Below are positions 30,362-59,880 of a stretch of DNA of 64,000 nucleotides, piece by piece. The stretch is from Gammaproteobacteria bacterium. Its GTDB lineage: Bacteria > Pseudomonadota > Gammaproteobacteria > Chromatiales > Chromatiaceae. The DNA lies in NCBI GenBank assembly GCA_030148485.1, contig JASBTJ010000026.1, positions 1 through 64,000 on the forward strand. Reading direction: 5' to 3'. The position numbers and the translations under genes are program-made. Below the pieces are notes generated by a model that was not told where the DNA came from, did no database searches, and was given only the letters and a program-made list of their open reading frames with translations. Position 1 is the first letter of the stretch, and each line of letters begins with the position of its first letter.

Positions 30362-30787
30362 TCATGCGGATACCGCGCCGCTCTCGTTGGCGGCCGCCTT
30401 CATCACGTCGGCTACCGTGGTGTACATGATGGTCCAGGCCTCCTTGGTGTCCGGCGTGAATGCATCGCCCAAGCCCTGTTCCAGGGTCCACAGCAGACAA
30501 TCCGCGACCTTGTCGTAGTCCTCGTCCTTGACGCCGTAATCCACATGGCGCTTGCCCATAGCCTGCACAGCGGGCAGCAGCGGTTCCAGGTTCTCCAGGC
30601 CATTCACCGCGGTATTGATCATGGCCATGAGCTTGCGACCCTGGTCGGTCATATCGCTTTTGAAGTACGGCTGGACCTCGGGATAGGTTTCGAACAACCG
30701 GCCGTAGAACAGCTCGGCCGCCTTCTCGCTGATGGGCACGACCTTGGCCCAGGAATCTTTCACCAGTGCGATTTGTGCAGGGGTCAT
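30362..30787 (-). CDS. Single-domain haemoglobin (Vitreoscilla type)
   Basis: 141 residues, 3-on-3 globin fold: MTPAQIALVKDSW start, FYGRLFETYPEVQPYFKSD, proximal His in MGKRHVDYGV. No reductase domain and no signal, so cytoplasmic. Such globins bind O2 and NO and, with a reductase, turn NO into nitrate. It is the last gene of a leftward operon starting at the sigma-54 promoter at 35409-35424: oxidoreductase, undecahaem cytochrome, two small cytochromes, globin (gaps 7, 49, 3 and 32 bases). Nitrogen control of the operon suggests protection from nitrite-derived NO (inference). Confidence 0.92.
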   Translation of the reverse strand: MTPAQIALVKDSWAKVVPISEKAAELFYGRLFETYPEVQPYFKSDMTDQGRKLMAMINTAVNGLENLEPLLPAVQAMGKRHVDYGVKDEDYDKVADCLLWTLEQGLGDAFTPDTKEAWTIMYTTVADVMKAAANESGAVSA

Positions 30788-30819
30788 CGTTTCAATCCTC
30801 GTTGGAAAACATGCGCAGC

Positions 30820-31194
30820 TTAGCGCGTGACGTTAATGTGGTGGCGTGCCAACGCCACCATGTAATCGACGGCGGCACGGACCTGTGAATCCGACAACTC
30901 CGGGTTGCCGCCCCGTGGCGGCATATAGGTGTCGTCGGGGCCGAAGAAGCCTTCGATGGCATGGCGGTACAACAGCGGCAGCGGCTTTCGCAGGCGCGGT
31001 GCCCATTCAGTCGGTTGCATGGGGATCGGTGCGCCGGCGATACCGTAGCCATGGCAACCTTCACAGGTGTCGAGCCACAAGGCCCGACCCTGCACCAGAT
31101 GCGGATCCGTAAACTCGGTGTAAGGAGACGACGGCGCGGCAGGCACGGCGGCCGTGGCCACAACCATCATTGTTCCACCAAGCAGGCCGCGCAT
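30820..31194 (-). CDS. Monohaem cytochrome c
   Basis: 124 residues with a short signal peptide (LLGGTMMVVATAAVPAAP), one haem site CEGCHGYG and a likely axial Met in DTYMPPRGG. Cytochrome c5/class I size and layout (PELSDSQVRAAVDYMVALA C-terminal helix). Periplasmic electron carrier. It lies 3 bases after the Tll0287-like gene and 32 bases before the globin gene in the same operon; probably takes electrons from, or gives them to, the multihaem protein. Confidence 0.9.
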   Translation of the reverse strand: MRGLLGGTMMVVATAAVPAAPSSPYTEFTDPHLVQGRALWLDTCEGCHGYGIAGAPIPMQPTEWAPRLRKPLPLLYRHAIEGFFGPDDTYMPPRGGNPELSDSQVRAAVDYMVALARHHINVTR

Positions 31195-31197
31195 CGG

Positions 31198-31788
31198 TCA
31201 ACTCTCGACCGGGATGCGGATGACCACGCCACCCATCACATCACCCAGTTTGAAGTCCTTTTTCGGGGTATCGGGGTGGGCGTTGTGGCACGCCACACAG
31301 ACCGGCGCTACACCAGTGTCCGCATACACGGCGGTGAAGTATTTCTGTCCACCCAGCTCTTCGGTGGTGTAGTAGTTCTTGCCCTTGTTTTCGGCAACGT
31401 ATTTCAGGCCGGTCTTCTCGGCTTCGGTTTTCGGCGCATTCTGTTTGTTGATCGGCCAAAGCGACTGCAGGGAGTAGCTGAAATTCACGTCCGGCAGTTT
31501 CTCGGCCCGCTTCTGCACCAGCTCGGCACCAAAGCGGAACATCTGCGCCGGCAGAACCAGCGCCTTGTCGTCTTCGAAGTGTTCCGACGCCTTGATCACC
31601 TTTTCCTTCTTTACCAGGCGATTGACGATCTTGCGAGTGTAGATGGTGCGATCCGAGTCCATCACCAGGTGCAAGGCGTCCGCCATCGCCTTGACGGATA
31701 CCTGGGCATCGCTCGCCGCCGTGGCTACGGTGCCGGCGCTCGCCAACAAGGCGGCACCGGTGATCAGCAGGGGTTTACGCAGTTTCAT
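31198..31788 (-). CDS. Tll0287-like (DUF3365) haem protein
   Basis: 196 residues from the ATG at 31788 (AGGAG upstream); the frame runs further upstream without sense. Signal peptide (KPLLITGAALLASAGTVATA), a PAS-like Tll0287 domain (about 30-190) with one haem motif VCVACHNAHPDTPKKDF followed by KLGDVMGGVVIRIPV. The domain is known from cyanobacterial Tll0287 and from sensor proteins; here it stands alone in the periplasm. It may be an electron carrier or gas sensor. In operon with two other cytochromes. Confidence 0.88.
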   Translation of the reverse strand: MKLRKPLLITGAALLASAGTVATAASDAQVSVKAMADALHLVMDSDRTIYTRKIVNRLVKKEKVIKASEHFEDDKALVLPAQMFRFGAELVQKRAEKLPDVNFSYSLQSLWPINKQNAPKTEAEKTGLKYVAENKGKNYYTTEELGGQKYFTAVYADTGVAPVCVACHNAHPDTPKKDFKLGDVMGGVVIRIPVES

Positions 31789-31837
31789 AACGAGTCTCCT
31801 CATCTTTGTGATGTCGTGATGCATGTTCGCTACCGGG

Positions 31838-33256
31838 TTAAAAACCGAACATGCCGGCGTCATCGCCACCTGCGTTGGCTCGGCGACGTTTCTGGTCCTG
31901 CTCGGCCAGGTCCATGGTGTCCACATGCACCTTGGGCTGACCGTTGAAATTACGATCGATCAATGCCTGATCCGCCAAGGCATCGAGACTGAACCCGAGA
32001 CCATGGCAATGCAGACAGGCCGGCCGGATCATTTTCGAGTTCGGCGACAGACTGGCGCTCTGGTTGTGGTCCACCATGACGCGGGACATCCAGTCGTTGA
32101 CGTCGAAGTCGACGCGCGGCATATGGCAGGTGGCGCAAGACACCCCCGCGTCGCCGTCGATCTCCCCGGCCTGGGCCTTGCGCCACAGCGCGCCATGGGG
32201 CGAGTTTTCGAAGGCCAACGTGTGCTGATCGTCATGGCAACCGGTGCAGGCCTCGACAGCGGCCTTGACCACGTCGAAGCGATGGGCGCCATGACAGCTC
32301 AGGCAGGTCAACTGTGCATGGGCCACGTCCGGCTTCATCGGCAGACGCGCCTGATCCGGCGTCATGGGCGACAGACCGGCTGCGATCCGCATGCCGTGCT
32401 TGCCCTGACCGAAGCGTTTCACTTCCAGGTCGTGACATTGCGCGCAACCGGCGGTACCCGGCTTGTCGGTCCAGGCCATCGGGGTACCGGACGCATCCGG
32501 TGGCATATGACAAGCCGTGCAGTTGACGCCCGCCTGGGCGTGACGGGTTTCCAGCCAGTCGCGGCGAATCCCGGGCGTGACCGCAGCGCCGGTGGGGGCG
32601 TCCATGTCGCCGGCGGTCAACGCCTGCACCGGAAAGCGATCGTGGGGGTAGGTCATGATCTCCCCGACGACACCGGCGAACTCCCGCGCGGGCACCGTAC
32701 CATCCGCCTTGATCGGGTCTTCGTGCAGATGCTTGACCAGGAAGTTGGTATACAAGGCACGATTGTCGTGAAAGTTGTGACAGCCTGAACTGGTGCAGGT
32801 GGCGAACTCCATCCCGACGTGGGATGGACGGTCGTCGGCCACATCGGCATGGCAATGCACGCAAAGATCCTTCGGTTGGCTCAGGCCATTCTTGGCAATG
32901 ATCTCCGGCTTGTGTTCGGTGTGGCAGGTCACGCAATGCAGTGCATCGATCTTGGCCAGCTGCGGTGCGTTCCGGGGATCCTTGAATTTGGCTGCCGGGT
33001 GGGAGTCGAACGGTTTTTTGCGCACATCGCCATGACAGTCCACACAGGCCTGCTGCAGCACCTCGCCACCCCCCAACGGATTGACATGGCAGGCCGCGCA
33101 GTCGTCCGCCAATTGATGATGACCATCGCTGAGGGGGCCGGGCATCATCAGGGCCGGATCCGCCTTGCCGTACAGCATGGACAGCAGATACCCAGCGAAC
33201 GCCAGGCTGCCGACCAGCCATACGCCCCACAGGATGATTTTCGTGCGTTTACGCAT
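31838..33256 (-). CDS. Membrane-anchored undecahaem cytochrome c
   Basis: 472 residues. One N-terminal helix (IILWGVWLVGSLAFAGYLL) then a periplasmic part with ten CxxCH sites (CAACH, CVDCH, CVTCH, CVHCH, CTACH, CAQCH, CLSCH, CTGCH, CATCH, CLHCH) plus one wide C-x4-CH site, CTSSGCHNFHD. That is eleven likely haems. The family is usually labelled 'cytochrome c3 family'; its reaction is not known to me. It lies 7 bases downstream of the FAD/haem-b membrane oxidoreductase, so the simplest reading is a periplasmic electron sink for NAD(P)H-derived electrons. A catalytic role on nitrite or hydroxylamine is possible but unsupported. Confidence 0.9.
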   Translation of the reverse strand: MRKRTKIILWGVWLVGSLAFAGYLLSMLYGKADPALMMPGPLSDGHHQLADDCAACHVNPLGGGEVLQQACVDCHGDVRKKPFDSHPAAKFKDPRNAPQLAKIDALHCVTCHTEHKPEIIAKNGLSQPKDLCVHCHADVADDRPSHVGMEFATCTSSGCHNFHDNRALYTNFLVKHLHEDPIKADGTVPAREFAGVVGEIMTYPHDRFPVQALTAGDMDAPTGAAVTPGIRRDWLETRHAQAGVNCTACHMPPDASGTPMAWTDKPGTAGCAQCHDLEVKRFGQGKHGMRIAAGLSPMTPDQARLPMKPDVAHAQLTCLSCHGAHRFDVVKAAVEACTGCHDDQHTLAFENSPHGALWRKAQAGEIDGDAGVSCATCHMPRVDFDVNDWMSRVMVDHNQSASLSPNSKMIRPACLHCHGLGFSLDALADQALIDRNFNGQPKVHVDTMDLAEQDQKRRRANAGGDDAGMFGF

Positions 33257-33263
33257 GCAGTGC

Positions 33264-35261
33264 TCAGTACCAATAGGTCTTCAGGACATGAAAGCCGAGT
33301 GCCACCGGTACCGGCCAGAACCAGAGGATGTGCCACCACACCGACTGGCGGCGTAGCCGCGACGCCAGGGCGCCGCCGACACGGTGCTCCAGCGAGATCA
33401 CGCCGCTGGACAGCGCGCCCAACAGCAACATCACCGTGAAGCTGATCATCAGGATGGCGTTCAGCCCGTCGCCCAGGCGCAGGCCGGTATGCGCCACCAA
33501 GGCGACGATGACCAGCAGGCCCAGGGCGATGTGTGCCAGGCGCCAGCCGTCGAAACGGCCAAGCGCCTGCAGCCTTTTCAATCGTTTACGCGGTGACAAC
33601 AGCAGTCCCAGCGCGAACAGCCCCAGCACGGTGAAGCCGCTGATCTGCTTGAGCAGCCCGTCACGCCACAGCAAATCCCACTGCCATGTCGCCTGGACCG
33701 TCTGGGCGTAGGGAATGACCGGCGCGAACAACATCGCCAGCGCGGCCAACAGGGACAGCATGGCAGTCACGAACAGGGTCTTGTGCCAAGGGACGGGGTC
33801 GGGAGACTTGCTACCCAGCAGTTGTTCCAGCAACGGCTTGCAGGAACCGCAAACACTGGACGCGCCGGTGCACTCGCGCAGCGCCTGCACACTACATGCG
33901 CCGCCGGTCATCGCGTCGCTGAGTGCGCCGCGATTGACCGATTTGCACTGGCATACCAAGGCGCTTGCCGGCCAGGCATTGACGTCCTGCGCCTCACCGT
34001 CGGGCCAAAGGTTTCCGGTGCGGGCGAAACGCCATAATTGCCAGGGCCAGATCAAGGCCTTGTCGGTGATGGCGGACTGCACCCGTGCCGCGTCGTCCCA
34101 TTGTCCGATCGCGACCACACCTTCCAGACGGTGACGGCGCACCAGCAGCACCCGATAACGCCCGGTTTCCGGGTCCCGCCAGACATGACGGTCGCCCCGG
34201 TGCAGTTCGTCCCGCGCCCCCATCGGGCCCATGCTCAACACGTGGCTACCGGCTACCTTGAGTCGGGTGCTGGCCAGGGAACCCTGATAACTGCCGGCAT
34301 CGCCCAGCAGATGACTGACCGCCACACTGGCCTGCTCAAGCCCGGGCGCGACCAGGCCATAGACGCGACCGCGATGCTCGGCGCACTCGCCCACCGCGTA
34401 CACATCCGCCACGGACGTCCGCATGTTGTCATCGACACGGATGCCGTCGCCCCACGCGATGCGTGCATCCTTGGCAAGCTGGACGTTGGGCCGGATACCG
34501 GTGGAGACGATCACGGTGTCGCAAGCCAGCTCGCGCCCAGACATCAGACGCAGGCCCTCGACCCGCTCCCTACCGCATACCTGGCGCACCCCGTCGCCGA
34601 TGATCAGCTAGATGCCCAGCTCGGCCAGGTGCGACGCCAAGGTCTGGGAGGCGCCCAGATCGAGTTGGCTGCTCATCAGCCGGTCGGCATGCTCCACCAC
34701 GGTCACCCGGGTGCCGTTGCGCTGCATGCCCCGCGCCGCCTCCAGGCCCAACAGACCGCCGCCGAGCACCACGGTGTGGTGGCTGCGCACACGCCGGGCC
34801 GCCAACGCCTCGGCATCGTCACGATTACGAAAGGTGTAGACCCCCGGCAGATCGATACCGCTGATACCCGGCACATGGGGATGGGAACCGGTGGCCAGGA
34901 TCAGCTTGCTGTATCGCTGGCTGTTGCCGGCGGCGTCGATTACGCGATGCTGCTGATGGTCGACGGCCACCACGCTATAACCCAGTCGCTGCTCCACCCG
35001 CGCTTCGCTCGGAACGATCAGATGATCCGTCAGCCCGTCCCAAGCCACGTCGCCGGCCAACACCGACGACAACCGGACCCGGTTGTAGGGCCGATGGGGT
35101 TCGGCACCGTAGATCACCACATGCGCGGCCGGCCGCCGCGCCAGCAATGCCCGCGCTGCCGCCATGCCCGCCGGACCGTTGCCCACGATCACCACGGGCG
35201 CTTGCGGGTCGGCCGCTGCCGACGTGTTCGGCGTATCCGTCACGGGCATCGGCTGATTCAT
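33264..35261 (-). pseudogene. NAD(P)H-FAD / BFD [2Fe-2S] / haem-b membrane oxidoreductase, interrupted by TAG
   Basis: The gene reads in one frame from ATG 35261 to 33264 (665 codons) except for a TAG at 34608-34610 (codon 218). Part 1 (residues ~25-217) is a NirB-like FAD domain: VVIVGNGPAGMAAARALL, PYNRVRLSSVLAG, VVLGGGLLGLEAARG. Part 2 continues the same fold (VIVSTGIRPNVQLAKDA, ADVYAVGECAEHRGRVYGL), then a BFD [2Fe-2S] site (LVCQCKSVNRG...CGSCKPL), then five membrane helices with paired His (WRLAHIALG...VAHTG; WWHIL...LGFHV) fit for b haems. At the TAG homologues would carry a charged residue after ELGI. Nonsense mutation, sequence error or readthrough remain open. Confidence 0.85.
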
Positions 35262-35279
35262 CGTTGGCGTGCTCCCCCG

Positions 35280-35343
35280 AAAAAAAAAGACGTCCACCAC
35301 CGTCGGGCGGTGCAACCGCCTGGGGTGATGGACGCCGTTGTCC
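35280..35343 (-). promoter_or_regulatory. Leader terminator with overlapping ANTAR-type P2 hairpin
   Basis: On the minus strand, P2 is GGAC-AACGGC-GTCC (35343-35330): a hexaloop with A at position 1 and G at position 4, the known ANTAR recognition pattern. Its 3' arm GTCC is also the start of the terminator arm GTCCATCACC (35333-35324), which pairs with GGTGGTGGAC (35301-35292), encloses an inner GGCGGT/ACCGCC hairpin, and is followed by nine T (35288-35280). P2 and terminator cannot form together. It lies 19 bases before the oxidoreductase start. Confidence 0.75.
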
Positions 35344-35367
35344 AAAAGCGACCGACACTGATCGCCA

Positions 35368-35398
35368 GCGGGCGGGAGTCCCTGTAGACACCGCCCGC
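35368..35398 (-). promoter_or_regulatory. Candidate ANTAR P1 hairpin of the oxidoreductase leader
   Basis: Eight-pair stem GCGGGCGG/CCGCCCGC with an inner GTC/GAC stem and six-base loop TACAGG, beginning at the predicted transcript start. Position fits P1 of an ANTAR element, but the loop lacks A1/G4, so the match is partial. Confidence 0.4.
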
Positions 35399-35408
35399 AA
35401 TGGGGTAG

Positions 35409-35424
35409 AGCAAGACCTATGCCA
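35409..35424 (-). promoter_or_regulatory. Sigma-54 (-24/-12) promoter of the oxidoreductase-cytochrome-globin operon
   Basis: Minus strand TGGCATAGGTCTTGCT against the RpoN consensus TGGCAC-N5-TTGCT, with GG and GC 10 bases apart. Start predicted near 35398, giving a ~137-base leader with a terminator. Upstream at 35478-35493 is an NtrC-like half site (TGCACC-AAAAG-TGTCA on the minus strand). Confidence 0.8.
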
Positions 35425-36394: not shown

Positions 36395-36517
36395 GACTGA
36401 CAGGCAGGGTGAACGGAAAGGACGCCACGGGGCGGGGGGCGATTATACCCGTCCGAGCGCCACGTTGGCCCGACCCGGCACACTCGATTCCCCCCTCCTC
36501 TATCCCCGGTGCACGCC

Positions 36518-36949
36518 ATGCAGCTGACCCGCTACACCGACTATGCGTTGCGCGTGCTGCTGTACATGGGCAGCATCGGAACCGAGCAACGCGCCACCGT
36601 GGCCGACATCGCCGACCGCTACGGGATCGCACGCAATCATTTGCTCAAAGTGGTGCACAAGCTCGGACAGCTGGGATATGTGCGCACCATCCGCGGCAAA
36701 GGCGGCGGTATCGAGCTGGCCCGTCACCCCACCGAGATCAGTGTCGGGCGGGTGGTACGGGACATGGAGGCACGGCTGCACATCATCGACTGCCAGGAAC
36801 CTCCCTGTCCGTTGCACGGCGCCTGTCGGCTCAAGGGTCTGCTGGACGAGGCGGCGGAGGCCTTTCTGGCGGTGCTGGACCAGCACACCCTCGCTGACGT
36901 CAACCACGCTCCGGAACAAACCCTGCGCCTGCTGCGCCTGCCGGTCTGA
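36518..36949 (+). CDS. nsrR: Rrf2-family NO-sensing repressor NsrR (first copy)
   Basis: 143 residues from the ATG at 36518. Winged helix (MQLTRYTDYALRVLLYMG, RNHLLKVVHKLGQLGYVRTIRGKGGG) and the Fe-S ligand cluster DCQEPPCPLHGAC, i.e. C-x4-C-x5-C as in E. coli NsrR. Nitrosylation of the cluster lifts repression. The next gene downstream is a truncated haemoglobin whose promoter has a double NsrR-like operator at 36992-37044. A second paralogue ends the same module at 38615. Strong call for family; high for NsrR because of the Cys spacing and context. Confidence 0.92.
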   Translation: MQLTRYTDYALRVLLYMGSIGTEQRATVADIADRYGIARNHLLKVVHKLGQLGYVRTIRGKGGGIELARHPTEISVGRVVRDMEARLHIIDCQEPPCPLHGACRLKGLLDEAAEAFLAVLDQHTLADVNHAPEQTLRLLRLPV

Positions 36950-36991
36950 CCAGCCGTTCCGACCCACCATCGGCCGCGCCTCGAATTAATT

Positions 36992-37044
36992 GTTGCATTT
37001 TCAATGAATGTTTATGTATCCTAAACATTCATTCGTAATGCAAC
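36992..37044. promoter_or_regulatory. Double NsrR-like operator over the truncated haemoglobin promoter
   Basis: A 53 bp mirror structure: GTTGCATT, 3 bases, AATGAATGTTTA, 7-base centre, TAAACATTCATT, 3 bases, AATGCAAC. All arms are exact complements. Each outer half (TTGCATT-N3-AATG and CATT-N3-AATGCAA) resembles an NsrR site (TGCATT...AATGCA). TTGCAT at 36994 and TATCCT at 37017 (17-base spacer) could be -35 and -10 and are fully covered. Confidence 0.75.
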
Positions 37045-37063
37045 TTATTGGGGTACCTCACTC

Positions 37064-37429
37064 ATGACTTCCTTGTACGAGCGCATCGGCGGAGCCCAGG
37101 CAGTCGACCTGGCGGTGGAGAATTTTTATCGCAAGGTGCTGACCGACGACCGCATCAGCCATTTTTTCGATGGCGTCGACATGGACGCCCAGATCGCCAA
37201 GCAGAAGGGTTTCCTCACCATGGTGTTCGGCGGGCCACACAGCTACACCGGTCAAAACATGCGCGACGGACACAAACACCTGGTGGCCCGCGGGCTGAAT
37301 GACAGCCATGTGGACGCGGTGATCGAGCTGCTGGGCCAGACACTTGCGGAGCTGGGTGTCGCCGACAGCGACATTGCCGAGATCGCCGCCATTGCCAACA
37401 GCGTGCGCGACGACGTGCTCGATCGCTAG
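37064..37429 (+). CDS. glbN: Group I truncated haemoglobin
   Basis: 121 residues, 2-on-2 globin: MTSLYERIGGAQAVDLAVENFY, FFDGVDMDAQIAKQKGFLTMVFGG, proximal His in GHKHLVARGL. Cytoplasmic. These proteins bind O2/NO and can oxidise NO to nitrate when re-reduced. The operator upstream and the NsrR gene before it point to NO defence; the ferredoxin-type reductase gene downstream is the likely electron donor. A MITE now separates the two and starts on this gene's TAG stop. Confidence 0.95.
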   Translation: MTSLYERIGGAQAVDLAVENFYRKVLTDDRISHFFDGVDMDAQIAKQKGFLTMVFGGPHSYTGQNMRDGHKHLVARGLNDSHVDAVIELLGQTLAELGVADSDIAEIAAIANSVRDDVLDR

Positions 37430-37582
37430 GCCACCGCTGAAAAATTCAGCGGTTCCGCGGCACAGGGAGGTGCCGCCAAAATCGCTCACGGCAAGTGACC
37501 GGTTTTGCAGCAAGCTGCAAACCGCGTTTGCAGCGCAGCGTGCACGAGCAGTCCAGGATGGACTTGTTCAGCACTTCCCTAA
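37427..37582 (+). mobile_element. ~155 bp MITE-like element, copy 3
   Basis: It runs from the TA of the haemoglobin stop codon (37427-37428) to TA at 37580-37581. Same blocks as the other copies (AAAAATTCAGCGG, GGTGCCGCCAAAATCG, GCAAACCGCGTTTGCAGCGC, GTCCAGGATGG). It splits what would otherwise be a compact haemoglobin-reductase operon by ~170 bases and may affect co-transcription. Confidence 0.92.
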
Positions 37583-37602
37583 CCCACCCCAGGAGCCACC
37601 AC

Positions 37603-38589
37603 ATGCCCCAGTTGCATTTCAACGGTACCGCGATCGAGCTGCCACCCGGCCAGTCGGTGTTGGACGGTCTGCTCGAACACGGTCACGCCATCGCCAACAG
37701 TTGTCGCGCCGGGGCGTGTCAGGCCTGCCTGATGCAGGCCACCGAAGGCGACCTGCCGCCCCAGGCGCAGATCGGCCTGAAGCCGACCCAGGCGAGCCAG
37801 GGTTATTTCCTTGCCTGCCAATGTCGACCGGAAAAGCCGCTGTCGGTGCGGCTGCCCGACATGGCCGAACACCGCCACGCGGCTGTGGTGACCGAGCTGC
37901 AGCCCTTGTCCGAACAGGTGATGGCCGTCAGTGTACGACCCGAGGGCGACTACCCCTACCGGCCCGGCCAATATACCACCCTGTGGCGCGACGACGGACT
38001 GGGTCGCAGTTACTCGCTGGCCAGTGTGCCCGGCGTGGATGCCGAACTGCGGTTTCACGTGCGGCGCGTCCCCAATGGACGCTTCAGTGGCTGGGTGTTC
38101 GATCAGTTACGCCCCGGGCAACGCATAGACCTGCAATGCGCCACCGGCGATTGCGTGTATCTTCCCGAGTACGGAGATGACGATCTGCTGCTGGTTGGCA
38201 CCGCGACCGGACTGGCCCCACTGTATGGCATTCTCCGCGAGGCCCTTCGCCAAGGACACCGTGGCGCAATCCATCTGCTACATGGCGCCTACGACCCGCA
38301 GGGCTTGTACCTACGTGACGAACTGGGGGATTTGGCCGACAGGCATCCGCATATCCACTATCATGCCGCTGTGTTGGAAGCCGGCGATAGCGATGTCACC
38401 GTGGCCCAGGTCGATGGCTTGGCGCTGGAACAATTATCAGGACTGAACAACCCCGTGGCCTATCTGTGCGGCGCCCCGGACTTTGTGCAAGGCTTGCGCA
38501 AACGGCTGTTTCTGGCCGGCATGGCGATGAACCGCATCCACGCCGACGCCTTTCTGCCGGCCGCGGCCAACACGGCGTCCACCAGCTGA
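37603..38589 (+). CDS. [2Fe-2S] ferredoxin-FAD-NAD(P)H reductase, probable haemoglobin reductase
   Basis: 328 residues. Plant-type ferredoxin domain (about 1-85) with CRAGACQACLM...ACQC cluster ligands, FAD domain (about 95-190) with RPGQYTTL and GRSYSLASVPG, and NAD(P) domain with VGTATGLAPLYGILREAL and YLCGAPDFVQ. Layout as in MmoC/phenol hydroxylase reductases. Start ATG 37603 with AGGAG upstream. Between a truncated haemoglobin and an NsrR paralogue, its best-fitting role is to re-reduce the haemoglobin in NO dioxygenation (inference). A ring-hydroxylating monooxygenase partner is not present in the window. Confidence 0.9.
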   Translation: MPQLHFNGTAIELPPGQSVLDGLLEHGHAIANSCRAGACQACLMQATEGDLPPQAQIGLKPTQASQGYFLACQCRPEKPLSVRLPDMAEHRHAAVVTELQPLSEQVMAVSVRPEGDYPYRPGQYTTLWRDDGLGRSYSLASVPGVDAELRFHVRRVPNGRFSGWVFDQLRPGQRIDLQCATGDCVYLPEYGDDDLLLVGTATGLAPLYGILREALRQGHRGAIHLLHGAYDPQGLYLRDELGDLADRHPHIHYHAAVLEAGDSDVTVAQVDGLALEQLSGLNNPVAYLCGAPDFVQGLRKRLFLAGMAMNRIHADAFLPAAANTASTS

Positions 38590-38614
38590 CCGAACCCGAC
38601 GAAAGAGAACGGCG

Positions 38615-39064
38615 ATGCAACTGACCCACTACACGGACTATGGCTTGCGCGTGCTGATGTTCCTGGCACTGCAGCCCGACCGTGCACTCGTGACCATCAG
38701 TGAAATTGCCGAACACTTCGAGATTCCCCGCAACCATCTGATCAAGGTGGTACAACGCCTTGGCCAGCTCGGCTATGTGGCGACGGTGCGCGGCAAGGGT
38801 GGCGGGTTGCGGCTGGGCATGGAACCGCAGGACGTTGTCATCGGCCAGGTGGTGCGGGACATGGAGTCGACCCTGGACATCGTCGACTGCGGCAAACCGC
38901 CCTGCCCGCTGCAAGGCGATTGCACGCTCAAATCGATACTCAATCAAGCGAAGGCGGCCTTCCTGCAGGCCCTGGACCAACACACCCTGGCCGAACTGAC
39001 CCCGCAGCCGGACGCCCTACGCATGCTCCTGCACTGGCCCGTCGTCGATATCGGGCGGCATTGA
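38615..39064 (+). CDS. Rrf2-family NsrR-like regulator (second copy)
   Basis: 149 residues, ~50-60% alike by eye to the first copy: MQLTHYTDYGLRVLMFLAL, PRNHLIKVVQRLGQLGYVATVRGKGGG and cluster ligands DCGKPPCPLQGDC with the same C-x4-C-x5-C spacing. It starts 25 bases after the reductase gene with AAAGAG upstream. Two NsrR paralogues bracketing one NO module is unusual. They may form mixed operator control or differ in the signal sensed. Confidence 0.9.
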   Translation: MQLTHYTDYGLRVLMFLALQPDRALVTISEIAEHFEIPRNHLIKVVQRLGQLGYVATVRGKGGGLRLGMEPQDVVIGQVVRDMESTLDIVDCGKPPCPLQGDCTLKSILNQAKAAFLQALDQHTLAELTPQPDALRMLLHWPVVDIGRH

Positions 39065-39607: not shown

Positions 39608-39994
39608 TCAATCGGAGGGGAACAGGATATGGCGCGCGGCGCCGGGCTTGAGCAGTATACGGTGTAGGAAACGGCAATAGTCGTCCCGCACCCCGCGATG
39701 CAGGATCACGAACGACACCCACACCCCGGGGAGCAGGAACAACGCCAGCCACTGGGCGCCTGCCTGGGGCAACGTGAAGGCCGCCAACCCCAACACATAA
39801 AGGGGCCAGCTGAACAACAACCCGCGCAGACCGTGCTTGATGCCCAACAGCACCGCGATGCCGCGCCGTCGCCATGTCTGTGCCGGCGACCGATACACGG
39901 CTTCACAGATCGCCCGCTCCAACTCGCCGTCCACCTGGTCCAAGCGACGCCCAACCCGCGCCAGCTGCGGGTCCCAGGGCAGCCGGTCAGTCAT
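39608..39994 (-). CDS. Small two-helix membrane protein in the nitrate operon
   Basis: 128 residues, not recognised. Hydrophilic N-terminal ~45 residues (RRLDQVDGELERAICEAVYRS), then two close membrane helices (GLRGLLFSWPLYVLGLAAFTL and WLALFLLPGVWVSFVIL), then a basic tail. Its ATG overlaps the nasA stop by 8 bases, and mobB follows in 4 bases, so it is part of the operon. Possibly a membrane partner of the reductase; no direct evidence. Confidence 0.7.
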   Translation of the reverse strand: MTDRLPWDPQLARVGRRLDQVDGELERAICEAVYRSPAQTWRRRGIAVLLGIKHGLRGLLFSWPLYVLGLAAFTLPQAGAQWLALFLLPGVWVSFVILHRGVRDDYCRFLHRILLKPGAARHILFPSD

Positions 39995-42653
39995 AAGCGC
40001 CGGCAGCGAATTCGGCCAGAATCCGTTTCAGCTCCGGCACGCAGGAGCCGCAGTTGGTACCGGCGTTGAGCGCTTGACCGATCGCTTCAGCCGAGCCGAG
40101 CCGCTGCTCGCGGATCCCCTTGACGATGGTGTTCAGGCCGACGCTGAAACAGGCACACACCACCCGACCGGCATCGTCCTGCCCCTTCGGCGGGGTGCCA
40201 CGCAACAGACGACTGCGCGCCTTTTCGTCCACCTTGTCCAGCTTGAACAGTTCCACCAGCCAGTCGCGCGGCGGCAATTCCGGCGTCGGGCCGATGATGA
40301 TCACCGCGTCCAGGCGACCATTGACCAGCCGCGCCGCGCGGTAGTTCGACTGTGTGGAGTCATACAGCTCGCGCCATTCCGCGCCCGGCTCGTCGGAACA
40401 CAACAGCTGACGCGCCCGTGCGGCCCAGTTGTCCGGGCGCTGCTCACCGGCCACCTCGTAGTGCCACAGCCCTTCGCGCCGTGCCTTGCTCCAGTAGCTG
40501 GCGCGGCGTGGTTTGATGTCGCGCCGGGTGAGCATGAAGCCGTACCAGGCCGCACGGTAGGGGATCACCCGCACGGGGGTGTGTTTGAACTCCGGCTGGC
40601 CGGAGATCAGGTCCACCTTGTCGTTGACCAGGCTGTCGACCCGCGCCGCGCTGGCGTACTGGTCGCTCCAATGGATGGGCGCGAACACGTCGCCGGGCAA
40701 CACACTGTCGCACACCCGAGTACGCAGAATTGCCTCGCCCCAGTGACTGGAGACCGCCGCCAGCGCACCTGCCTCCAGCGACAAGGCTTCGGCGTCGTAG
40801 GGATTGACCACGATGAAGGGCTCGGTGTCATGGGCCGATAAGCGTGGCGACTTGGCGGTACGGGTCATGGTGTGCCAGTGGTCCCGCACCCGACCGGTGT
40901 TGAGCACCAAGGGATAGGCCTCATCGGTGTGGATGGCCGGCGGCCTGGGGGTGACCGGGAGGAAGTTGGCGCGCTGACTGCGCGTGTAGAAGCGACCGTT
41001 GCCGAACAAGCGGGCCTTGGACTGGCCGTTCGCGGCAATGGGCCACTGCACGGGAGCCAGTCCGTCATAAGCCGGTTGGTCGAGACCGATCAGACCGCTG
41101 ATATCGAAGTCCCGATCACCGTGGTTTTCAAAACCGGACAACCGGGCGTGCTCGTCGAAGATCTGCGCCGGGGAGTCGTAGTCCATCCCCGGGAAGCCAA
41201 GCCGCGCGCCCACCTGGGACAATATCCACCAATCGGGCTTGGCCATGCCGGGGCTGGGCAGGAAGCACCGCTGGCGGGAGATGCGCCGCTCCGAGTTGGT
41301 GACGGTGCCGTCCTTCTCGCCCCAGGCCTGGGCGGGCAGCTTGATGTGGGCGTAACGCAAGGTGTCGTTCTCGGCCACACAGTCGGACACCACCAGACAC
41401 TCGCAGCGCGCCAACGCCCGTTTGACCTGGTTGGCGTCGGGCATGCTGACCGCCGGGTTGGTACCCATGACCCACAGCGCCTTGATCCGCCCCTGCTCGA
41501 CGGCACGGAACATGTCCACCGCCTTCAAGCCGGGCTTGTCGGCCAGCTTGGCGGTCTGCCAGAAACGGCTGACCAGCTCATGATGCAGCGGGTCGTCCAG
41601 CTCCATGTGAGACGCCAGTTGGTTGGCCAAGCCGCCTACTTCCCGCCCGCCCATGGCGTTGGGCTGCCCGGTGATGGAAAACGGTCCCATGCCCGGTCGG
41701 CCGATGCGACCGGTAAACAGGTGGCAGTTGATGATGGCATTGCCCTTGTCGACACCGCTGGTGGACTGGTTGATACCTTGGGAAAAAACCGTCACCACCT
41801 GCTCGGTATCGGCAAACCAATTGAAGTAGGTCAACAGGTCCTGTTCGTCCACGCCACAGTGCTCGGCCACCGCGCGCGGCGACGGCGAATACCATTCGGC
41901 AATGCGCAGGGTCTCCTCGACACCCTGGGTCTGATGCCGCACAAACAGTTCGTCCATCCGGTGCTGGTCACGCAGCCACACCAACAAGCCGTTGAACAAC
42001 ACGCTGTCGGTACCGCTCTGTACCTGCAGATGCAGATCGGCGGCGTCGCAGGTGGCGGTCTTGCGTGGGTCGATGACCACCACACGCATCTGGGGCCGTG
42101 CCTTCTTGGCCGCCAGGACCCGCTGGTACAACACCGGATGGCACCACGCCAGGTTCGAGCCGGTCAGTACCAACAGATCGGCCTGTTCCAGATCCTCGTA
42201 ACAGGTGGGCACGGTATCGCTACCGAAGGCACGCTTGTGGGCCGCCACGGCCGACTACATGCACAGGCGTGAATTGGTATCGATGTTCGCCGAGCCGATG
42301 CAGCCCTTCATCAGCTTGTTGGCGACATAATAGTCCTCGGTCAGCAACTGACCCGAGACGTAAAAGGCCACGGCATCCGGGCCATGTTGCTCGATGACGG
42401 CGCGAAAGCGCTGGCTCACCGCATCCAGGGCATGATCCCAATCGGTCTGGATGCCGTCGACCTCGGGCGCCAGCAGGCGCCCCTCAAGGTCGATGGTCTC
42501 ACCCAGGGCGGCACCTTTGGAGCATAGACGCCCCAGGTTGGCCGGATGCGCATTGTCCCCCCGCACCTTGACCTGTCCATTCGACTCCGGCGTGACAATC
42601 ACCCCGCAGCCGACACCGCAGTAAGGACAGGTTGTGCGAACTTCAGTGCTCAT
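39987..42653 (-). pseudogene. nasA: Assimilatory nitrate reductase NasA with BFD domain, interrupted by TAG
   Basis: 888 codons in one frame from ATG 42653 (CAGGAG upstream) to 39987, except a TAG at 42255-42257 (codon 133). N-terminal [4Fe-4S] ligands CPYCGVGCGVIV...GRLCSKG, Mo-ligand Cys 131 in SRLCM, then the TAG exactly where the paralogous NarB has the first Ser of CMSSAV, and normal sequence again (SAVAAHKRAFGSD). The rest is complete (GINQSTSGVDKGNAIINCHLFTG; SITGQPNAMGGREVG) with a C-terminal BFD [2Fe-2S] site (VCACFSVG...CGSCVPEL). Terminated product would have no active site. An intact relative lies at 44666-46870. Confidence 0.88.
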
Positions 42654-42701: not shown

Positions 42702-44543
42702 TCAATGGGTATCTGCTAACACGCCGACTTGCGGCATCTTGGCCAGCCCGGTGCTCCGGGCGTGTTCGGCAAAACCGGCGTTCTTCCAGAAGAAGGCGCC
42801 CGGCATGGTGGTCGGTACCACGACGGCGTAGAACAGCGCTCGGCCGGCCACGGCAGCCGCAACCACCAACACACTGACAGCGGCCCACAACACCAGGCCA
42901 ATCACGCCATCCGCCCCGGCCGCCGCCAGGGCCGCAATGACCAAGGCCGACACGACCAACAAGCCGTTGCGCAACCAGTAGACCTTACCGAAGTCGGTAC
43001 GTTGCAGATAATGACCCGCAGCGCCCTCGCCGCCTTTGGCGTTCAGATCGTGGGCATGCCGCCACAGGCCGAAGGCTTCCGCCATCAGCCCCAGCACCGC
43101 GGGCACTGCCAGCACGGCCATCAGTTGGGCATAATGCTCGCCCGCAGACAGCGCCAGCGCCATGCTCACCAGGCCCACCGCCAAGGCGCCCAGCGTGAGC
43201 ATATTACCGTAGAAACTGGTCAGGACCTGCCAGTGGTGCCAGTACGGACGCGCCGGAATGCGATAGATGCGGTGCATGAAATACAGCGCCGCCAGACCCG
43301 CCAAGGCGGCCCCCCAACCGACCGCCAGGGACAATCCGTCGACCACCCCGGCGGGCAGCCATCCGGTGAGCACCGGCAAGCCCTTGAGCACCGCATACAG
43401 CCCCAATAGGTTGTAGAACACGGCGACCCCGGCGACCTCGCGGCTGACCGGTGAGTACTTGAGGTTGTTGAACGCCCGGTAGAAGCGGTGCGGCCGCCCC
43501 AGGTGCAGAGTCGACAGCACCAGCCCCAGGGTCTCGATGCCGATCAGCCCGAACACCAGCAGCGGCCAAGCCACCGGGTGGGATGCCGGCGTCGGTACCG
43601 GCAGACCGGCCATGGGGCCGAGGAACAAGGCCAGGAAGGCGCCGACCACCAGCTGGGTAACCAGGGTGAAGACCACCAGTGGATTCTCGCGGGTGGACAG
43701 CCTCCCGAGACCCCAGCGCATGGGACGGCCGTCGTCGTCCACCTTGGGGACATAAGGTCCGCCTTCGCCCTGTTCGTCACGCTCGTAGCGCAACGGCATG
43801 GCATCGGTGCGTTTCATCTCCCGCGGTAGGCTGTTGACCTGCTGGAAGCGGATGTTCGGGTGGGTGATCTCCGGCGTCGGGAAGCCGGGGATCTGCGTCT
43901 CCAACTGATGGCGGTCTTCCGGCGTGGTTTCGATGATGCCGAAGTCCAGGGCCCCCGCCAGACAGGCGGACGAACAAGCCGGCTTAAGCCCGACTTCCAG
44001 CCGGTCCACGCACATATTGCACTTGGACACATGCCCCGCCTGGGTATCCAACTGCGGCGCGTTGTACGGACACACCCAGGTGCAGTACCCGCAACCGAAG
44101 CAGATGTCCGGGTCTTGCAACACCGCGCCGTATTCCGCGAACTTGGTATAGGCACGGGTCGGACAACCCTTGAGACATACCGGGTCGTCGCAATGGTTGC
44201 ACGCCATGGAGATATTCAGTCGCGTGTAGGCCGGATAGGTACCGCCTTCCACATAACCCACAGAGCGGAACGCGATATGGGCCGGCAGGTCGTTCTTTTC
44301 CGAGCAGGCGGCCTCGCAGGCATGGCAGGAGATACAACGATCGGCGTTGAAATAGAAGCCGTGCTGCTTGTACCGATTGGGATTGTCGGAGACCGCATTG
44401 TCGCCGTTGATGTTCAGCGACTTGCCGCGCAACTCATGGCCCGCCGGCACGGTCTCGATGGACTGACCGTAACGGTTCTTTTGCGGGTGATCGGCGCGCG
44501 GCACCCATGCGTAGTTCTGTTCTTTGGGTCGGGGTTCGAACAT
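42702..44543 (-). CDS. DmsB-DmsC-type fusion: four-cluster ferredoxin plus membrane anchor
   Basis: 613 residues from ATG 44543 (GAGAGA upstream). N-terminal part (about 1-270) is a DmsB/NrfC-like [4Fe-4S] subunit: CISCHACEAACSEKN, CNHCDDPVCLKGCPT, CFGCGYCTWVCPYNAP, CNMCVDRL...CSSAC. The C-terminal part (about 300-600) is a DmsC-like quinol-oxidising anchor with eight or so helices. Normally these are two proteins. Lying between narB and nasA, it could feed electrons from the quinol pool to the cytoplasmic NarB. No Tat signal on NarB or here, so the complex would face the cytoplasm. Confidence 0.9.
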   Translation of the reverse strand: MFEPRPKEQNYAWVPRADHPQKNRYGQSIETVPAGHELRGKSLNINGDNAVSDNPNRYKQHGFYFNADRCISCHACEAACSEKNDLPAHIAFRSVGYVEGGTYPAYTRLNISMACNHCDDPVCLKGCPTRAYTKFAEYGAVLQDPDICFGCGYCTWVCPYNAPQLDTQAGHVSKCNMCVDRLEVGLKPACSSACLAGALDFGIIETTPEDRHQLETQIPGFPTPEITHPNIRFQQVNSLPREMKRTDAMPLRYERDEQGEGGPYVPKVDDDGRPMRWGLGRLSTRENPLVVFTLVTQLVVGAFLALFLGPMAGLPVPTPASHPVAWPLLVFGLIGIETLGLVLSTLHLGRPHRFYRAFNNLKYSPVSREVAGVAVFYNLLGLYAVLKGLPVLTGWLPAGVVDGLSLAVGWGAALAGLAALYFMHRIYRIPARPYWHHWQVLTSFYGNMLTLGALAVGLVSMALALSAGEHYAQLMAVLAVPAVLGLMAEAFGLWRHAHDLNAKGGEGAAGHYLQRTDFGKVYWLRNGLLVVSALVIAALAAAGADGVIGLVLWAAVSVLVVAAAVAGRALFYAVVVPTTMPGAFFWKNAGFAEHARSTGLAKMPQVGVLADTH

Positions 44544-44665
44544 CGTTGTCTCTCTTAATGACCTAGCCGGCAGTGGGGCATGATCGCCCTCACCGCCGGC
44601 CCATCTCCCGGGGGACGAGGGTGGCAAGTCGGATACAGCAGACAGGCCACAGCACTGACGGCTGG

Positions 44666-46870
44666 TCAGAACGCACGGGCGGCCCTGTTGCGCACCGCCG
44701 CCGCCTGCTGATCGGCAACCGGCTCGATGCGCGCGGCACACTGCTTGAACGCCGGCTGACGGGAATGCGGGTCCAGCAGGCCCAAGCTGATCCGGTTGAC
44801 GCAATCATGGAAATGGAAGGGGACAAACACCATATTTGGCGGTACGCGCTGGGTGGTCTGCACCATCACCACCGCGTCGCCACGGCGCGACACCACGCGC
44901 GCGTACTCGCCGTGCTTGATGCCCAGCTCCTTCGCCGCGTCGGGATTCATCTCCATGTACGGCGTGGGCGAAAACTTGTTCTGGTTGCCGATCTTGCCGG
45001 TGCGGGTGCGGGTGTGGAAATGCTCCACCACGCGGCCCGAGTTGAACCAGAACGGGTACTCGTCGTCCGGGCGCTCGTTGTTGTCGACGAAGGGCAGCGG
45101 GATCAGCTTCGCCTTGCCCGAGGGATAGGCGAATCGACCGTCGGTGTACAGTCGCTGGGTGCCGCCGCTGGAGTCCTCACCGGCCCACTCGCTGGGCGCA
45201 TCGGAACACGGCCACTGCACACCGCGCTCCTTTTCCAGCTTTTCATAGGTGATCCCCGAATAGTCCAACATCCGGCCACGGGACAGTTCACGCAGTTCCT
45301 CGAACACCTGTTCCGTGGATTCGGGGAATTCCATCTTCTGGCCTTGCTCGAAACGCTTCGCCATCTGGTTGAAGATCCACAGGTCCGGCTTGGCCACGCC
45401 CGGCGGCTCGCTGACGTTGCGGGTCAGGTTCACGCGCCGCTCGGTGTTCGTGAAACAGCCTTCCTTCTCGGCCCACAGCGCAGCCGGCAGGTAGATATGG
45501 GCGTACTCGGTCGTTTCCACGTCACGGTAGGCGTCCTGCACCACCAGGAATTCCAGCTTTTCCAGGATGCGACGGATACGCGGCGTATTGGGCATGGAGG
45601 TCATGGGGTTGGTGGCGATCAACCACAGCCCCTTGATCTGTCCGGTCTCGATGGCCGGCAGGATATCGGTCATGAACAGGCAGCGCTTTTCGGGGAAGAA
45701 GTCCGGATCGACACCCCAGAATTTCGCGATCTCCTGGCGATCTTCGTCCTTTTCCAAGGCGCGGTAGCCGGGCAAGCCAGAGCAGGACGACCACTCGCGT
45801 GTGCCCATGGCATTGGACTGGCCGGTGATGGACAGGCTGGTCCCGCCCTGCTTACCGATATTGCCGGTGATCAGGTTCAGGTTGTTGATGCCCACCACGC
45901 CGTCGGAGCCGTGGGTGGACTGGTTGATGCCCATGGTCCAGATGGACATGGCCTGCTTGGCCTTGCCATACACCCGGGCGACGTTGCGGATGGTGTCCTC
46001 GTCAATGCCGCAGATGCGCGAGGCGGTGACCGGGTCGTACTGCTCGACCAGCGCCTTGAACTCTTCAAAACCTTCTGTGTGGGCCTGGATATAACTCAGG
46101 TCCGCCAGGCCTTCCTTGAGGATGACGTGGGCCAGGGCGTTCAGCAGCACCACGTCAGTACCGGGCTGGATCGGCAAATGGATGTCCGCCATCTGGGCGA
46201 ACATGGTCACCCGGGGGTCCACCACGATGATGGGGAACTTGCGCTTTTCCAAGGTATCGCGCAGGCGCCAGAAGATCACCGGGTGCTGCTCGGGCAGGTT
46301 GGAACCGAAGGCCATCAGGCAGTCGGTGTGCTCGAAATCCTCGTAGCAACCGGGGGGGCCGTCGGACCCGAACGAGCGCTTGTAACCGGACACCGCCGAC
46401 GACATGCACAGGGTGGTGTTGCCATCGTAGTTGTTCGTGCCGATCACGCCCCGAGCCAGTTTGCCCAGGGTGTAGAACTCCTCGGTCATGATCTGACCGG
46501 TGGAGACGATGGAAAAGGCATCGCGGCCGTACTGCTGCTGGATGCGCTTGATCTCGTCCGCGGTGCGGTCCAACGCCGTGTCCCAGGACACTGCCTTGAA
46601 CTCATCCCAACGGTTTTCACGCAACAGCGGTTTCAGACCCCGCCCTGCCGTAGTAAACAGCTCGTGCTCAAAGATCCCTTTGATGCACAGCTTGCCGCGG
46701 TTGACGTCCGCATCGGCCACGCCGCGCGATGCCACCGCCTTGCCTTTGCCATCGATGCCCACCTCGATGGAACAACCCGTCGAGCAATAGCCGCAGGTGG
46801 TGTACTTCCATTCCACCACACCTTTGTCGGCGATCTTGATGGGATTCTTCTTGCCCCGTCCAAACAGCAT
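44666..46870 (-). CDS. narB: Assimilatory-type molybdopterin nitrate reductase (NarB/NasA family), intact
   Basis: 734 residues. N-terminal [4Fe-4S] ligands CGYCSTGCSIEVG and GKLCIKGIF, Mo-ligand Cys in TTLCMSSAVSGYKRSFGSD, MGINQSTHGSDGVVGINNLNL, SITGQSNAMGTRE, and the C-terminal bis-MGD domain (FWFNSGRVVEHFHTRTRTG). No twin-Arg signal, so cytoplasmic; no C-terminal BFD domain, unlike the paralogue downstream. Electron supply is therefore probably the adjacent DmsBC fusion. In operon with nirD (30 bases upstream). Function as nitrate reductase is inferred from family and operon. Confidence 0.92.
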   Translation of the reverse strand: MLFGRGKKNPIKIADKGVVEWKYTTCGYCSTGCSIEVGIDGKGKAVASRGVADADVNRGKLCIKGIFEHELFTTAGRGLKPLLRENRWDEFKAVSWDTALDRTADEIKRIQQQYGRDAFSIVSTGQIMTEEFYTLGKLARGVIGTNNYDGNTTLCMSSAVSGYKRSFGSDGPPGCYEDFEHTDCLMAFGSNLPEQHPVIFWRLRDTLEKRKFPIIVVDPRVTMFAQMADIHLPIQPGTDVVLLNALAHVILKEGLADLSYIQAHTEGFEEFKALVEQYDPVTASRICGIDEDTIRNVARVYGKAKQAMSIWTMGINQSTHGSDGVVGINNLNLITGNIGKQGGTSLSITGQSNAMGTREWSSCSGLPGYRALEKDEDRQEIAKFWGVDPDFFPEKRCLFMTDILPAIETGQIKGLWLIATNPMTSMPNTPRIRRILEKLEFLVVQDAYRDVETTEYAHIYLPAALWAEKEGCFTNTERRVNLTRNVSEPPGVAKPDLWIFNQMAKRFEQGQKMEFPESTEQVFEELRELSRGRMLDYSGITYEKLEKERGVQWPCSDAPSEWAGEDSSGGTQRLYTDGRFAYPSGKAKLIPLPFVDNNERPDDEYPFWFNSGRVVEHFHTRTRTGKIGNQNKFSPTPYMEMNPDAAKELGIKHGEYARVVSRRGDAVVMVQTTQRVPPNMVFVPFHFHDCVNRISLGLLDPHSRQPAFKQCAARIEPVADQQAAAVRNRAARAF

Positions 46871-51800: not shown

Positions 51801-52442
51801 ATGGCGAGCATCACGGTCATCATGAAAACAACGCGCGAGCCCGTTAAACGCATCCCCGTGACCATTCAGCAGGGCAACGCGGACCGTGTCAGCGTGGTCG
51901 ACACGGACCGCAACGGGGTCGCCGCCTTTCCCGGCATCACCGGCAGCGGGCGGGTATTCGTAGACGGACGTCCCCACTACCAGGGCCCACTCGATCGGGA
52001 TATCGTGGTCGAGCTATGGACCCTGGGCGCCGGCAACACCGATGCCGGTGATGGCGCCCCCCAGGGCATCGGCGGCGGCAGCATCGCCTACCCCAGCATG
52101 CAAACCCGCCCGCTGATGGTAAACGGGAAGGAGGTCCTCACCGACAGTGAGGGTTATATCGTGCACCCGGCGGAATGGTCGGAGGATTTTGTTCGCGCAC
52201 TCGCGGTCGACGAAGGCCTTTCCCTGGGCGAAGACCAATGGGAAGTGATCCACCACCTGCGCGACTTCTACAATCGCAAGCACGTTCAGTGTACGGTCAG
52301 GGACATGATCAAGCACTTTCGCGGTGTCTGGGGGAAGGAGAAGGGCAGCAACAAGTACCTTCACGAACTCTTCCCCAAAGGAGGCCCGCAAAAACAGGGC
52401 AACCGCCTGGCCGGGCTGCTTCGCACCAAGGGTGAGCATTGA
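51801..52442 (+). CDS. Fusion of a beta-sandwich domain with a Cys-less DsrC/TusE domain
   Basis: 213 residues from ATG 51801 (GAGGAA upstream). Residues ~1-75 look like a carboxypeptidase-regulatory/Cna-B type beta sandwich (REPVKRIPVTIQQG, VVDTDRNGVAAFPGI). Residues ~105-213 match DsrC/TusE: LMVNGKEVLTDSEGYIVHP, WSEDFVRALAVDEGLSLGEDQWEV, LRDFYNRK, KYLHELFPKGG. The sulfur-carrying C-terminal Cys of the family is missing: the tail reads LLRTKGEH, and the second Cys of DsrC (KQAC) reads KQGN. It thus cannot carry persulfide like DsrC. It overlaps the kinase start by 4 bases. Regulatory or scaffold role inferred. Confidence 0.85.
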   Translation: MASITVIMKTTREPVKRIPVTIQQGNADRVSVVDTDRNGVAAFPGITGSGRVFVDGRPHYQGPLDRDIVVELWTLGAGNTDAGDGAPQGIGGGSIAYPSMQTRPLMVNGKEVLTDSEGYIVHPAEWSEDFVRALAVDEGLSLGEDQWEVIHHLRDFYNRKHVQCTVRDMIKHFRGVWGKEKGSNKYLHELFPKGGPQKQGNRLAGLLRTKGEH

Positions 52443-59253: not shown

Positions 59254-59880
59254 TCAGGCAGCGCCGACCGGGATGGCCTGCGGCGTACTGCCCTGTCCGC
59301 TGCCGAGCAGATCGGAGGCGGCTATGATGCTGTCGGCGATTTCTACCATGCGTTTGTTACGATCCATCGCGGTCTTGCGCATCAACTTATAAGCCTCGTC
59401 TTCCGCAAGGCCGCGCTGGCTCATGACGATTCCCTTGGCCCGCTCGATGACCTTGCGCTCGGTCAACTGGCAGCGGGTCTTGTGCAGTTCCTCGGCCAAG
59501 GCCTTGAACTGGCGGAACCTGGCGATGGCCGCTTCCAGGATCGAGCGCATGCGCGCCGGATTGACGCCGTCCACCACATAGGCGCTGACGCCCACCTGCA
59601 CCGCGCGCTGGATGGTGTGCGCCTGCTGATCCGGCGCAAACATCACCAACGGTGACGGGGCGGCGCTCTGGATGGCCACCATGTCGTTCAGGATGGCACT
59701 GTCCAGCACGTCCGCGGCGATGGCCACGAACTCGGCAGCCGGACGTGCGCTCTGCGCCAGCAGCTCGGCCACGTCGCTGTACCGGGCCACCACCTCGCAG
59801 TCGGCGACGTTCAGCAGTTGCTCCACCGTCGAACCCCGCGTCGGGTCGATCTCTATCAGGATGGCGCGCAGTTTGTTCAC
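59254..59880 (-). CDS. nasT: ANTAR-domain antiterminator NasT
   Basis: 208 residues from GTG 59880 (AGAGGG upstream). Receiver-like N-domain (about 1-125, LRAILIEIDPTRGSTVEQLL), whose beta-3 end reads EFVAIAADVL without a clear phospho-Asp site, and a C-terminal ANTAR RNA-binding domain (CQLTERKVIERAKGIVMSQRGLAEDEAYKLMRKTAMDRN). NasT proteins free nitrate genes from leader termination by binding twin hexaloops. Its usual sensor NasS is not in the window. It has its own near-perfect sigma-54 promoter. Confidence 0.92.
   Translation of the reverse strand: MNKLRAILIEIDPTRGSTVEQLLNVADCEVVARYSDVAELLAQSARPAAEFVAIAADVLDSAILNDMVAIQSAAPSPLVMFAPDQQAHTIQRAVQVGVSAYVVDGVNPARMRSILEAAIARFRQFKALAEELHKTRCQLTERKVIERAKGIVMSQRGLAEDEAYKLMRKTAMDRNKRMVEIADSIIAASDLLGSGQGSTPQAIPVGAA

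Follow-up and report, generated by a model that had tools for sequence, protein, structure and literature searches.

In Bradyrhizobium japonicum, a nitrate-assimilation unit controlled by NasS-NasT, narK-bjgb-flp-nasC, encodes a single-domain haemoglobin, Bjgb, and an NAD(P)H-FAD protein, Flp, and these two proteins protect against nitric oxide (NO) (PMC4724949). The published account presents Flp as an FAD/NAD(P)H oxidoreductase of the cytoplasmic type and reports no multihaem cytochrome, Tll0287-like protein or cytochrome c for that operon (PMC4724949). Here we report a five-gene operon from a gammaproteobacterium of the Chromatiaceae (contig JASBTJ010000026.1; the stretch of 64,000 nucleotides that was analysed is called the window), in which a single-domain haemoglobin is accompanied by a flavoprotein fused to a membrane domain and by three c-haem proteins. 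By analogy, this module can be seen as a Bjgb/Flp pair whose flavoprotein has been extended through the membrane and provided with a periplasmic haem chain. The gene set was not described in the open literature searched, where the B. japonicum operon is the nearest precedent. The features concerned are the following.

33264 to 35261, minus strand: gene 1, a NirB-type FAD/NAD(P)H domain, Rubredoxin_C and a BFD [2Fe-2S] domain fused to a five-helix membrane domain; interrupted in frame in the assembly.
31838 to 33256, minus strand: gene 2, a membrane-anchored undecahaem cytochrome c, its C-terminal half related to the NrfA/ONR/HAO superfamily.
31198 to 31788, minus strand: gene 3, a stand-alone Tll0287-like (DUF3365, sCache_heme) c-haem protein with CVACH at residues 164-168.
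30820 to 31194, minus strand: gene 4, a small class-I-type cytochrome c with C44-X2-C47-H48 and an invariant M91.
30362 to 30787, minus strand: gene 5, a single-domain haemoglobin with Y28, F42, Q49, H81 and Y91, which we take to be B10, CD1, E7, F8 and G5 of bacterial globins.
35409 to 35424, minus strand: sigma-54 promoter TGGCATAGGTCTTGCT, a strict pattern match.
35285 to 35365 (approximate), minus strand: ANTAR antitermination element, made up of hairpins P1 and P2 and an intrinsic terminator, identified by the dual-hexaloop rule.
34608 to 34610, minus strand: in-frame TAG at residue 218 of gene 1, in a variable column and with no decay downstream.
59254 to 59880, minus strand: nasT-like gene for an ANTAR-domain regulator (PF03861), which putatively acts in trans on the leader; a sigma-54 site of its own lies at 59945-59930.

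Genes 1 to 5 run leftward from 35261 to 30362 and are separated by gaps of 7, 49, 3 and 32 bases. The initial annotation of this DNA had proposed a leftward operon with short gaps, and both this and its coordinates were right; the set of haem proteins that it named was likewise recovered, with Pfam matches to a multihaem cytochrome, a Tll0287-like protein, a cytochrome c and a globin in genes 2-5. Judged from its sequence, the operon probably handles toxic nitrogen oxides that arise during nitrate use. More specifically, we propose, as a tentative reading with somewhat less than an even chance of being right, that it encodes, as part of the nitrate-assimilation regulon, an NADH-driven nitrosative and nitrite-handling module with two arms: the globin in the cytosol and a second arm that crosses the membrane into the periplasm. 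This proposal draws on the five-gene synteny across phyla and the invariant [2Fe-2S] cysteines, membrane histidine pairs, haem motifs and globin pocket; on the sigma-54 and ANTAR elements, the sigma-54 sites before nirB, narK and nasT, and the co-occurrence with NrtA; on a five-helix model that places the histidine pairs on helices, together with the match of the cytochrome to NrfA and octahaem nitrite reductase; and on the truncated haemoglobin and Rrf2 gene of verrucomicrobial clusters and the Bjgb/Flp precedent (PMC4724949).

Under this proposal transcription would start from the sigma-54 promoter under nitrogen limitation, and NasT, an ANTAR protein, would release the leader terminator in response to nitrate or nitrite. 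The cytosolic FAD domain would take hydride from NAD(P)H and pass electrons on to the BFD [2Fe-2S] cluster, from which two paths would diverge. In one, electrons would cross the membrane by way of two bis-His b haems to reach the periplasmic haem proteins: the anchored undecahaem cytochrome, the Tll0287-like protein and the small cytochrome c. In the other, the BFD cluster would reduce the cytosolic globin, as is thought to occur with Flp and Bjgb. The most likely job of such a system would be the disposal of reactive nitrogen intermediates that escape nitrate and nitrite reduction, NO first and possibly nitrite or hydroxylamine, with the work divided between the cytosolic globin and the periplasmic haem chain. 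The gene set and its linkage, the conserved ligands and the promoter and leader elements can be read directly from the sequence; the direction of electron flow, the contacts between partners, the regulation in vivo and the substrate are what we infer from the components, to which we now turn.

In gene 1, Pfam recognises Pyr_redox_2, Rubredoxin_C and Fer2_BFD, followed by the membrane part. Among NCBIfam models the reductase part is nearest to NirB (TIGR02374), scoring 158.8 and 205.6 bits for two parts against a cut-off of 578; no NIR_SIR (siroheme) domain was found in gene 1 by the Pfam scan, and the protein falls outside the NirB family. The four BFD [2Fe-2S] cysteines are kept in 100% of 79 fusion proteins, as is each of the membrane histidines 577, 591, 644 and 658, which form two H-X13-H pairs (H577/H591 and H644/H658). 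Paired membrane histidines had been put forward as haem ligands in the initial annotation, and they do line up as two invariant pairs, each pair lying on helical segments of a confident predicted structure of five helices (mean pLDDT 94.5). With the FAD domain cytosolic, the Arg/Lys-rich loops would face the cytosol and one histidine of each pair would lie near each face, a placement that would set the two haems one above the other, one towards either side of the membrane. The membrane domain itself has no Pfam model over cut-off: Ferric_reduct (PF01794) matches 8 of 74 members, weakly (best E 7e-4), and Ni_hydr_CYTB and DUF4405 also match weakly. A sequence search of solved structures with this domain gave no significant match, and Foldseek with the model returned non-specific helical bundles only. 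VIA rows for the model include b561, b6f, hydrogenase cytochrome b, STEAP1 and DUOX1, with Z values within the helical-bundle background, and the fold comparison points to no single family.

The domains and the five helices of gene 1 are as first annotated, but a single intact open reading frame is not present in the assembly; the initial annotation had missed the TAG at 34610-34608, which splits the gene in frame. This region is open in relatives L006, L008 and L009, and the TAG falls in a column that varies among relatives. We reject old pseudogene decay, since gene 1 matches its relatives just as closely beyond the stop as ahead of it, with no second lesion seen. An in-frame TAG is also found in a nasA-like gene (39987-42653, minus strand), at 42257-42255, where four relatives have Ser or Ala. 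Amber suppression of both TAGs is made less likely by the tRNAs of the genome, a draft that is 91.6% complete: those typed among its 32 tRNA matches lack a CUA anticodon. TAG also serves as an ordinary terminal stop within the window. Most likely is either a nonsense mutation of recent date or a wrong base in the assembly, and the stop in gene 1 makes function in the source genome itself uncertain.

Gene 3 matches PF11845 (Tll0287-like) with 74.3 bits against a cut-off of 24.1, and C164, C167 and H168 are invariant in its clade, which places it among the Tll0287-like proteins. No conserved axial Cys was found in the alignment of this clade, unlike Tll0287 itself, which has one (PMC12889525); a sequence search of solved structures with the Tll0287-like set found nothing. 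In gene 4, C44, C47, H48 and M91 are each present in 100% of 47 sequences, so that a CXXCH motif with a downstream axial Met, the mark of class I cytochromes c, is constant. Y28, Q49, H81 and Y91 of gene 5 are each present in 100% of 66 globins, and these residues make a predicted NO-dioxygenase-type pocket (TyrB10, GlnE7, HisF8, TyrG5). No N-terminal hydrophobic signal was seen in gene 5.

The sigma-54 promoter and ANTAR-type switch that had been claimed for the leader were both located, the first by pattern (35424-35409) and the second by rule (about 35365-35285). A strict sigma-54 pattern matches five times in the 64 kb of the window, where 0.87 matches would be expected and 0 of 100 shuffles reach five. 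Four of the five sites lie directly upstream of the five-gene operon, nirB, narK and nasT, and the GG-N10-GC element that the operon shares with these nitrogen genes marks it as a candidate member of a sigma-54 regulon. Sigma-54-like sites precede the gene in 49 of 72 leaders examined, as against 20% of shuffled controls. The Rfam search gave no ANTAR family match in the leader, and the element was therefore tested by the published rule, which calls for two short hairpins whose six-base loops begin with A and have G as the fourth base (PMC3369931). Hairpin P1 is GCGATC-AGTGTC-GGTCGC and hairpin P2 is TGGAC-AACGGC-GTCCA; both hexaloops, AGTGTC and AACGGC, are of the A1/G4 kind, and P2 overlaps the 5' arm of the intrinsic terminator GGCGTCCATCACC...GGTGGTGGACGTC-T9. 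An ANTAR element with a T-run occurs in 0.09% of shuffled leaders. The strict element was found in 7 relatives and most failed the strict scan, in part because starts were mechanically placed and some have nasT directly upstream. The ANTAR protein encoded at 59254-59880 is a putative binder of this leader.

A scan of GTDB genomes identified 488 stretches encoding a relative of the undecahaem cytochrome, and locus counts were taken from the best 80 of these. The fusion gene is present in 78 of the 80, the Tll0287-like gene in 78, the globin in 69 and the small cytochrome c in 46; the groups represented by these loci include Gamma-, Beta- and Alphaproteobacteria and Verrucomicrobiota. Linkage in other genomes, which the initial annotation had made a check on its proposal, extends to almost all of the 80 nearest relatives, in several phyla. 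The carriers include iron or sulfur oxidisers and many ordinary marine heterotrophs. Constant co-occurrence with nas genes had also been put forward as a check; the association is strong, although it is not absolute. In an even draw of 369 gammaproteobacterial genomes, 27 of which carry the undecahaem cytochrome, NrtA was found in 23 of the 27 module-bearing genomes and in 52 of the 342 others (Fisher p 5e-14), and the C-terminal half of NirB in 22 of 27 and 147 of 342, respectively; these comparisons ignore phylogeny and are supportive only. Among 50 loci of at least 17 kb (with fetched flanks), 28 have nas genes within about 10 kb.

These associations also bear on an alternative in which the fusion protein mainly powers assimilation, as a Flp-like donor to the assimilatory nitrate reductase (and the globin), while its membrane and periplasmic haems feed from, or vent to, the respiratory chain or cytochrome c pool. 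The strong co-occurrence with NrtA agrees with this alternative, as do the NirB/Flp-like FAD and BFD domains, and no free-standing Flp-type reductase was noticed among the nas genes of the window. In B. japonicum flp is required for growth on nitrate (PMC4724949). We nevertheless consider this account unlikely, in view of the complete NirB encoded in the window, the second nitrate-reductase-like enzyme with its DmsB/membrane partner, and the verrucomicrobial clusters, which hold the module with no nas gene detected nearby. Those clusters have a truncated haemoglobin in place of the single-domain globin, are led by an NsrR/RirA-like Rrf2 gene with three conserved Cys, and in one case (L106, 4502-8026) include ResB and cytochrome c assembly genes, which lie between the genes for the truncated haemoglobin and the fusion protein. 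The truncated haemoglobin, the leading Rrf2 gene and the cytochrome c maturation genes lend added weight to a role with nitrogen oxides.

Gene 2 had been called an undecahaem membrane-anchored cytochrome c, and eleven haem motifs were indeed counted (ten CXXCH and one CX4CH). All eleven are invariant in 81 cytochromes, and twelve further His are conserved at 99-100%. NrfA (E 2e-10) and octahaem nitrite reductase (ONR; 9e-10) both match the C-terminal half by profile, and on this sequence evidence that half is related to the NrfA/ONR/HAO superfamily; by fold the match to HAO is weak (VIA Z 6.1-6.6, Foldseek E 0.004) and limited to residues about 216-440. This relationship raises a second alternative, that the undecahaem cytochrome is itself a periplasmic HAO/ONR-type enzyme reducing NO, nitrite or hydroxylamine with cytosolic NAD(P)H electrons, and twelve near-invariant extra His for eleven haems would leave room for a catalytic one. 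However, the CXXCK catalytic-haem motif of NrfA and ONR is not present in gene 2, all eleven motifs ending in His, and the extra His suffice to ligate every haem; with the structural match so weak and confined, we hold this to be unlikely. Very improbable, finally, is extracellular electron transfer, with the operon as a conduit by which excess NADH is discharged to an acceptor in the periplasm or outside the cell, since this would suit the multihaem wire, the transmembrane b-haem-type domain and those carriers that oxidise iron or sulfur but would leave the nitrogen regulation and globin unexplained, no porin partner was noticed, and many carriers are ordinary marine heterotrophs.

Several observations weigh against the nitrosative and nitrite-handling module that we prefer. 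Of the 50 long loci, 22 show no nas gene up to a distance of about 10 kb, and a globin is not seen in 11 of the 80 loci, although some of these are cut by contig ends. The invariant His are sufficient to make all eleven haems bis-His, which suits a wire better than an enzyme, and a CXXCK site is missing. The verrucomicrobial Rrf2 protein scores below the NCBI cut-off for NsrR, and in the genome of the window itself a stop breaks gene 1. A bolder version of our proposal, which we regard as somewhat unlikely, is that these operons encode transmembrane reductases of a kind that is widespread yet undescribed. They would be driven by NAD(P)H: a NirB-type flavoprotein would power an undecahaem enzyme of the HAO/ONR type in the periplasm, with NO, nitrite or hydroxylamine as the substrate to be reduced, and would be coupled to a cytosolic globin, the whole serving as a standard safety arm of nitrate assimilation.

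Three neighbouring regions of the window may be recorded here. Just upstream of the operon, at 36509-39064, two NsrR-like Rrf2 genes flank genes for a truncated haemoglobin and a 2Fe-2S/FAD reductase, an apparent NO-response cluster. At 42702-46870 a second molybdo-oxidoreductase, of the nitrate-reductase/FDH type, precedes a DmsB-like ferredoxin that has a membrane region, which suggests a quinol-linked enzyme beside NasA. Beside narK, at 52439-54172, lies a gene whose product, judged from its translation alone, resembles a PP2C-type phosphatase fused to a Ser/Thr kinase.

If our reading of the five-gene operon is right, nitrate assimilation in hundreds of bacterial species connects NAD(P)H in the cytosol to haems in the periplasm by a link that has gone unrecognised, and in which nitrogen assimilation, multihaem electron transport and defence against NO would come together. 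It would also assign testable roles to a membrane domain that no Pfam model matches over cut-off, to an undecahaem cytochrome with ties to the HAO superfamily and to DUF3365 proteins that stand alone.

In gene 1 the FAD, Rubredoxin_C and BFD domains can be aligned with TIGR02374, but where NirB has its siroheme half gene 1 has a five-helix membrane domain, and it lies far under the NirB cut-off. With dihaem domains of the ferric reductase, NOX and b561 types, gene 1 shares two helices each bearing H-X13-H; the Pfam matches are weak, and in gene 1 the domain rides on a NirB-type reductase and has no significant sequence match to a solved structure. Gene 2 is like NrfA, ONR and HAO in its C-terminal half, by profile and weakly by fold, and is set apart from them by eleven haems, an N-terminal membrane anchor, the lack of CXXCK and a candidate distal His for each haem. 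Stand-alone sCache_heme (Tll0287/DUF3365) proteins, which have been proposed to be redox proteins (PMC12889525), resemble gene 3 in the Pfam match and CXXCH, whereas the gene 3 clade lacks a conserved axial Cys and sits in a fixed operon. The closest solved structure to the gene 5 globin is Hell's Gate globin I (PDB 3S1I; E 6e-30). The Uet complex of Tenderiales, to judge by its description, also has an undecahaem cytochrome, and by description it is distinct, being a porin-linked extracellular system with triheme and tetraheme partners (PMC10734462). As a whole, the nearest described system is the Bjgb/Flp pair of the NasT-controlled operon.

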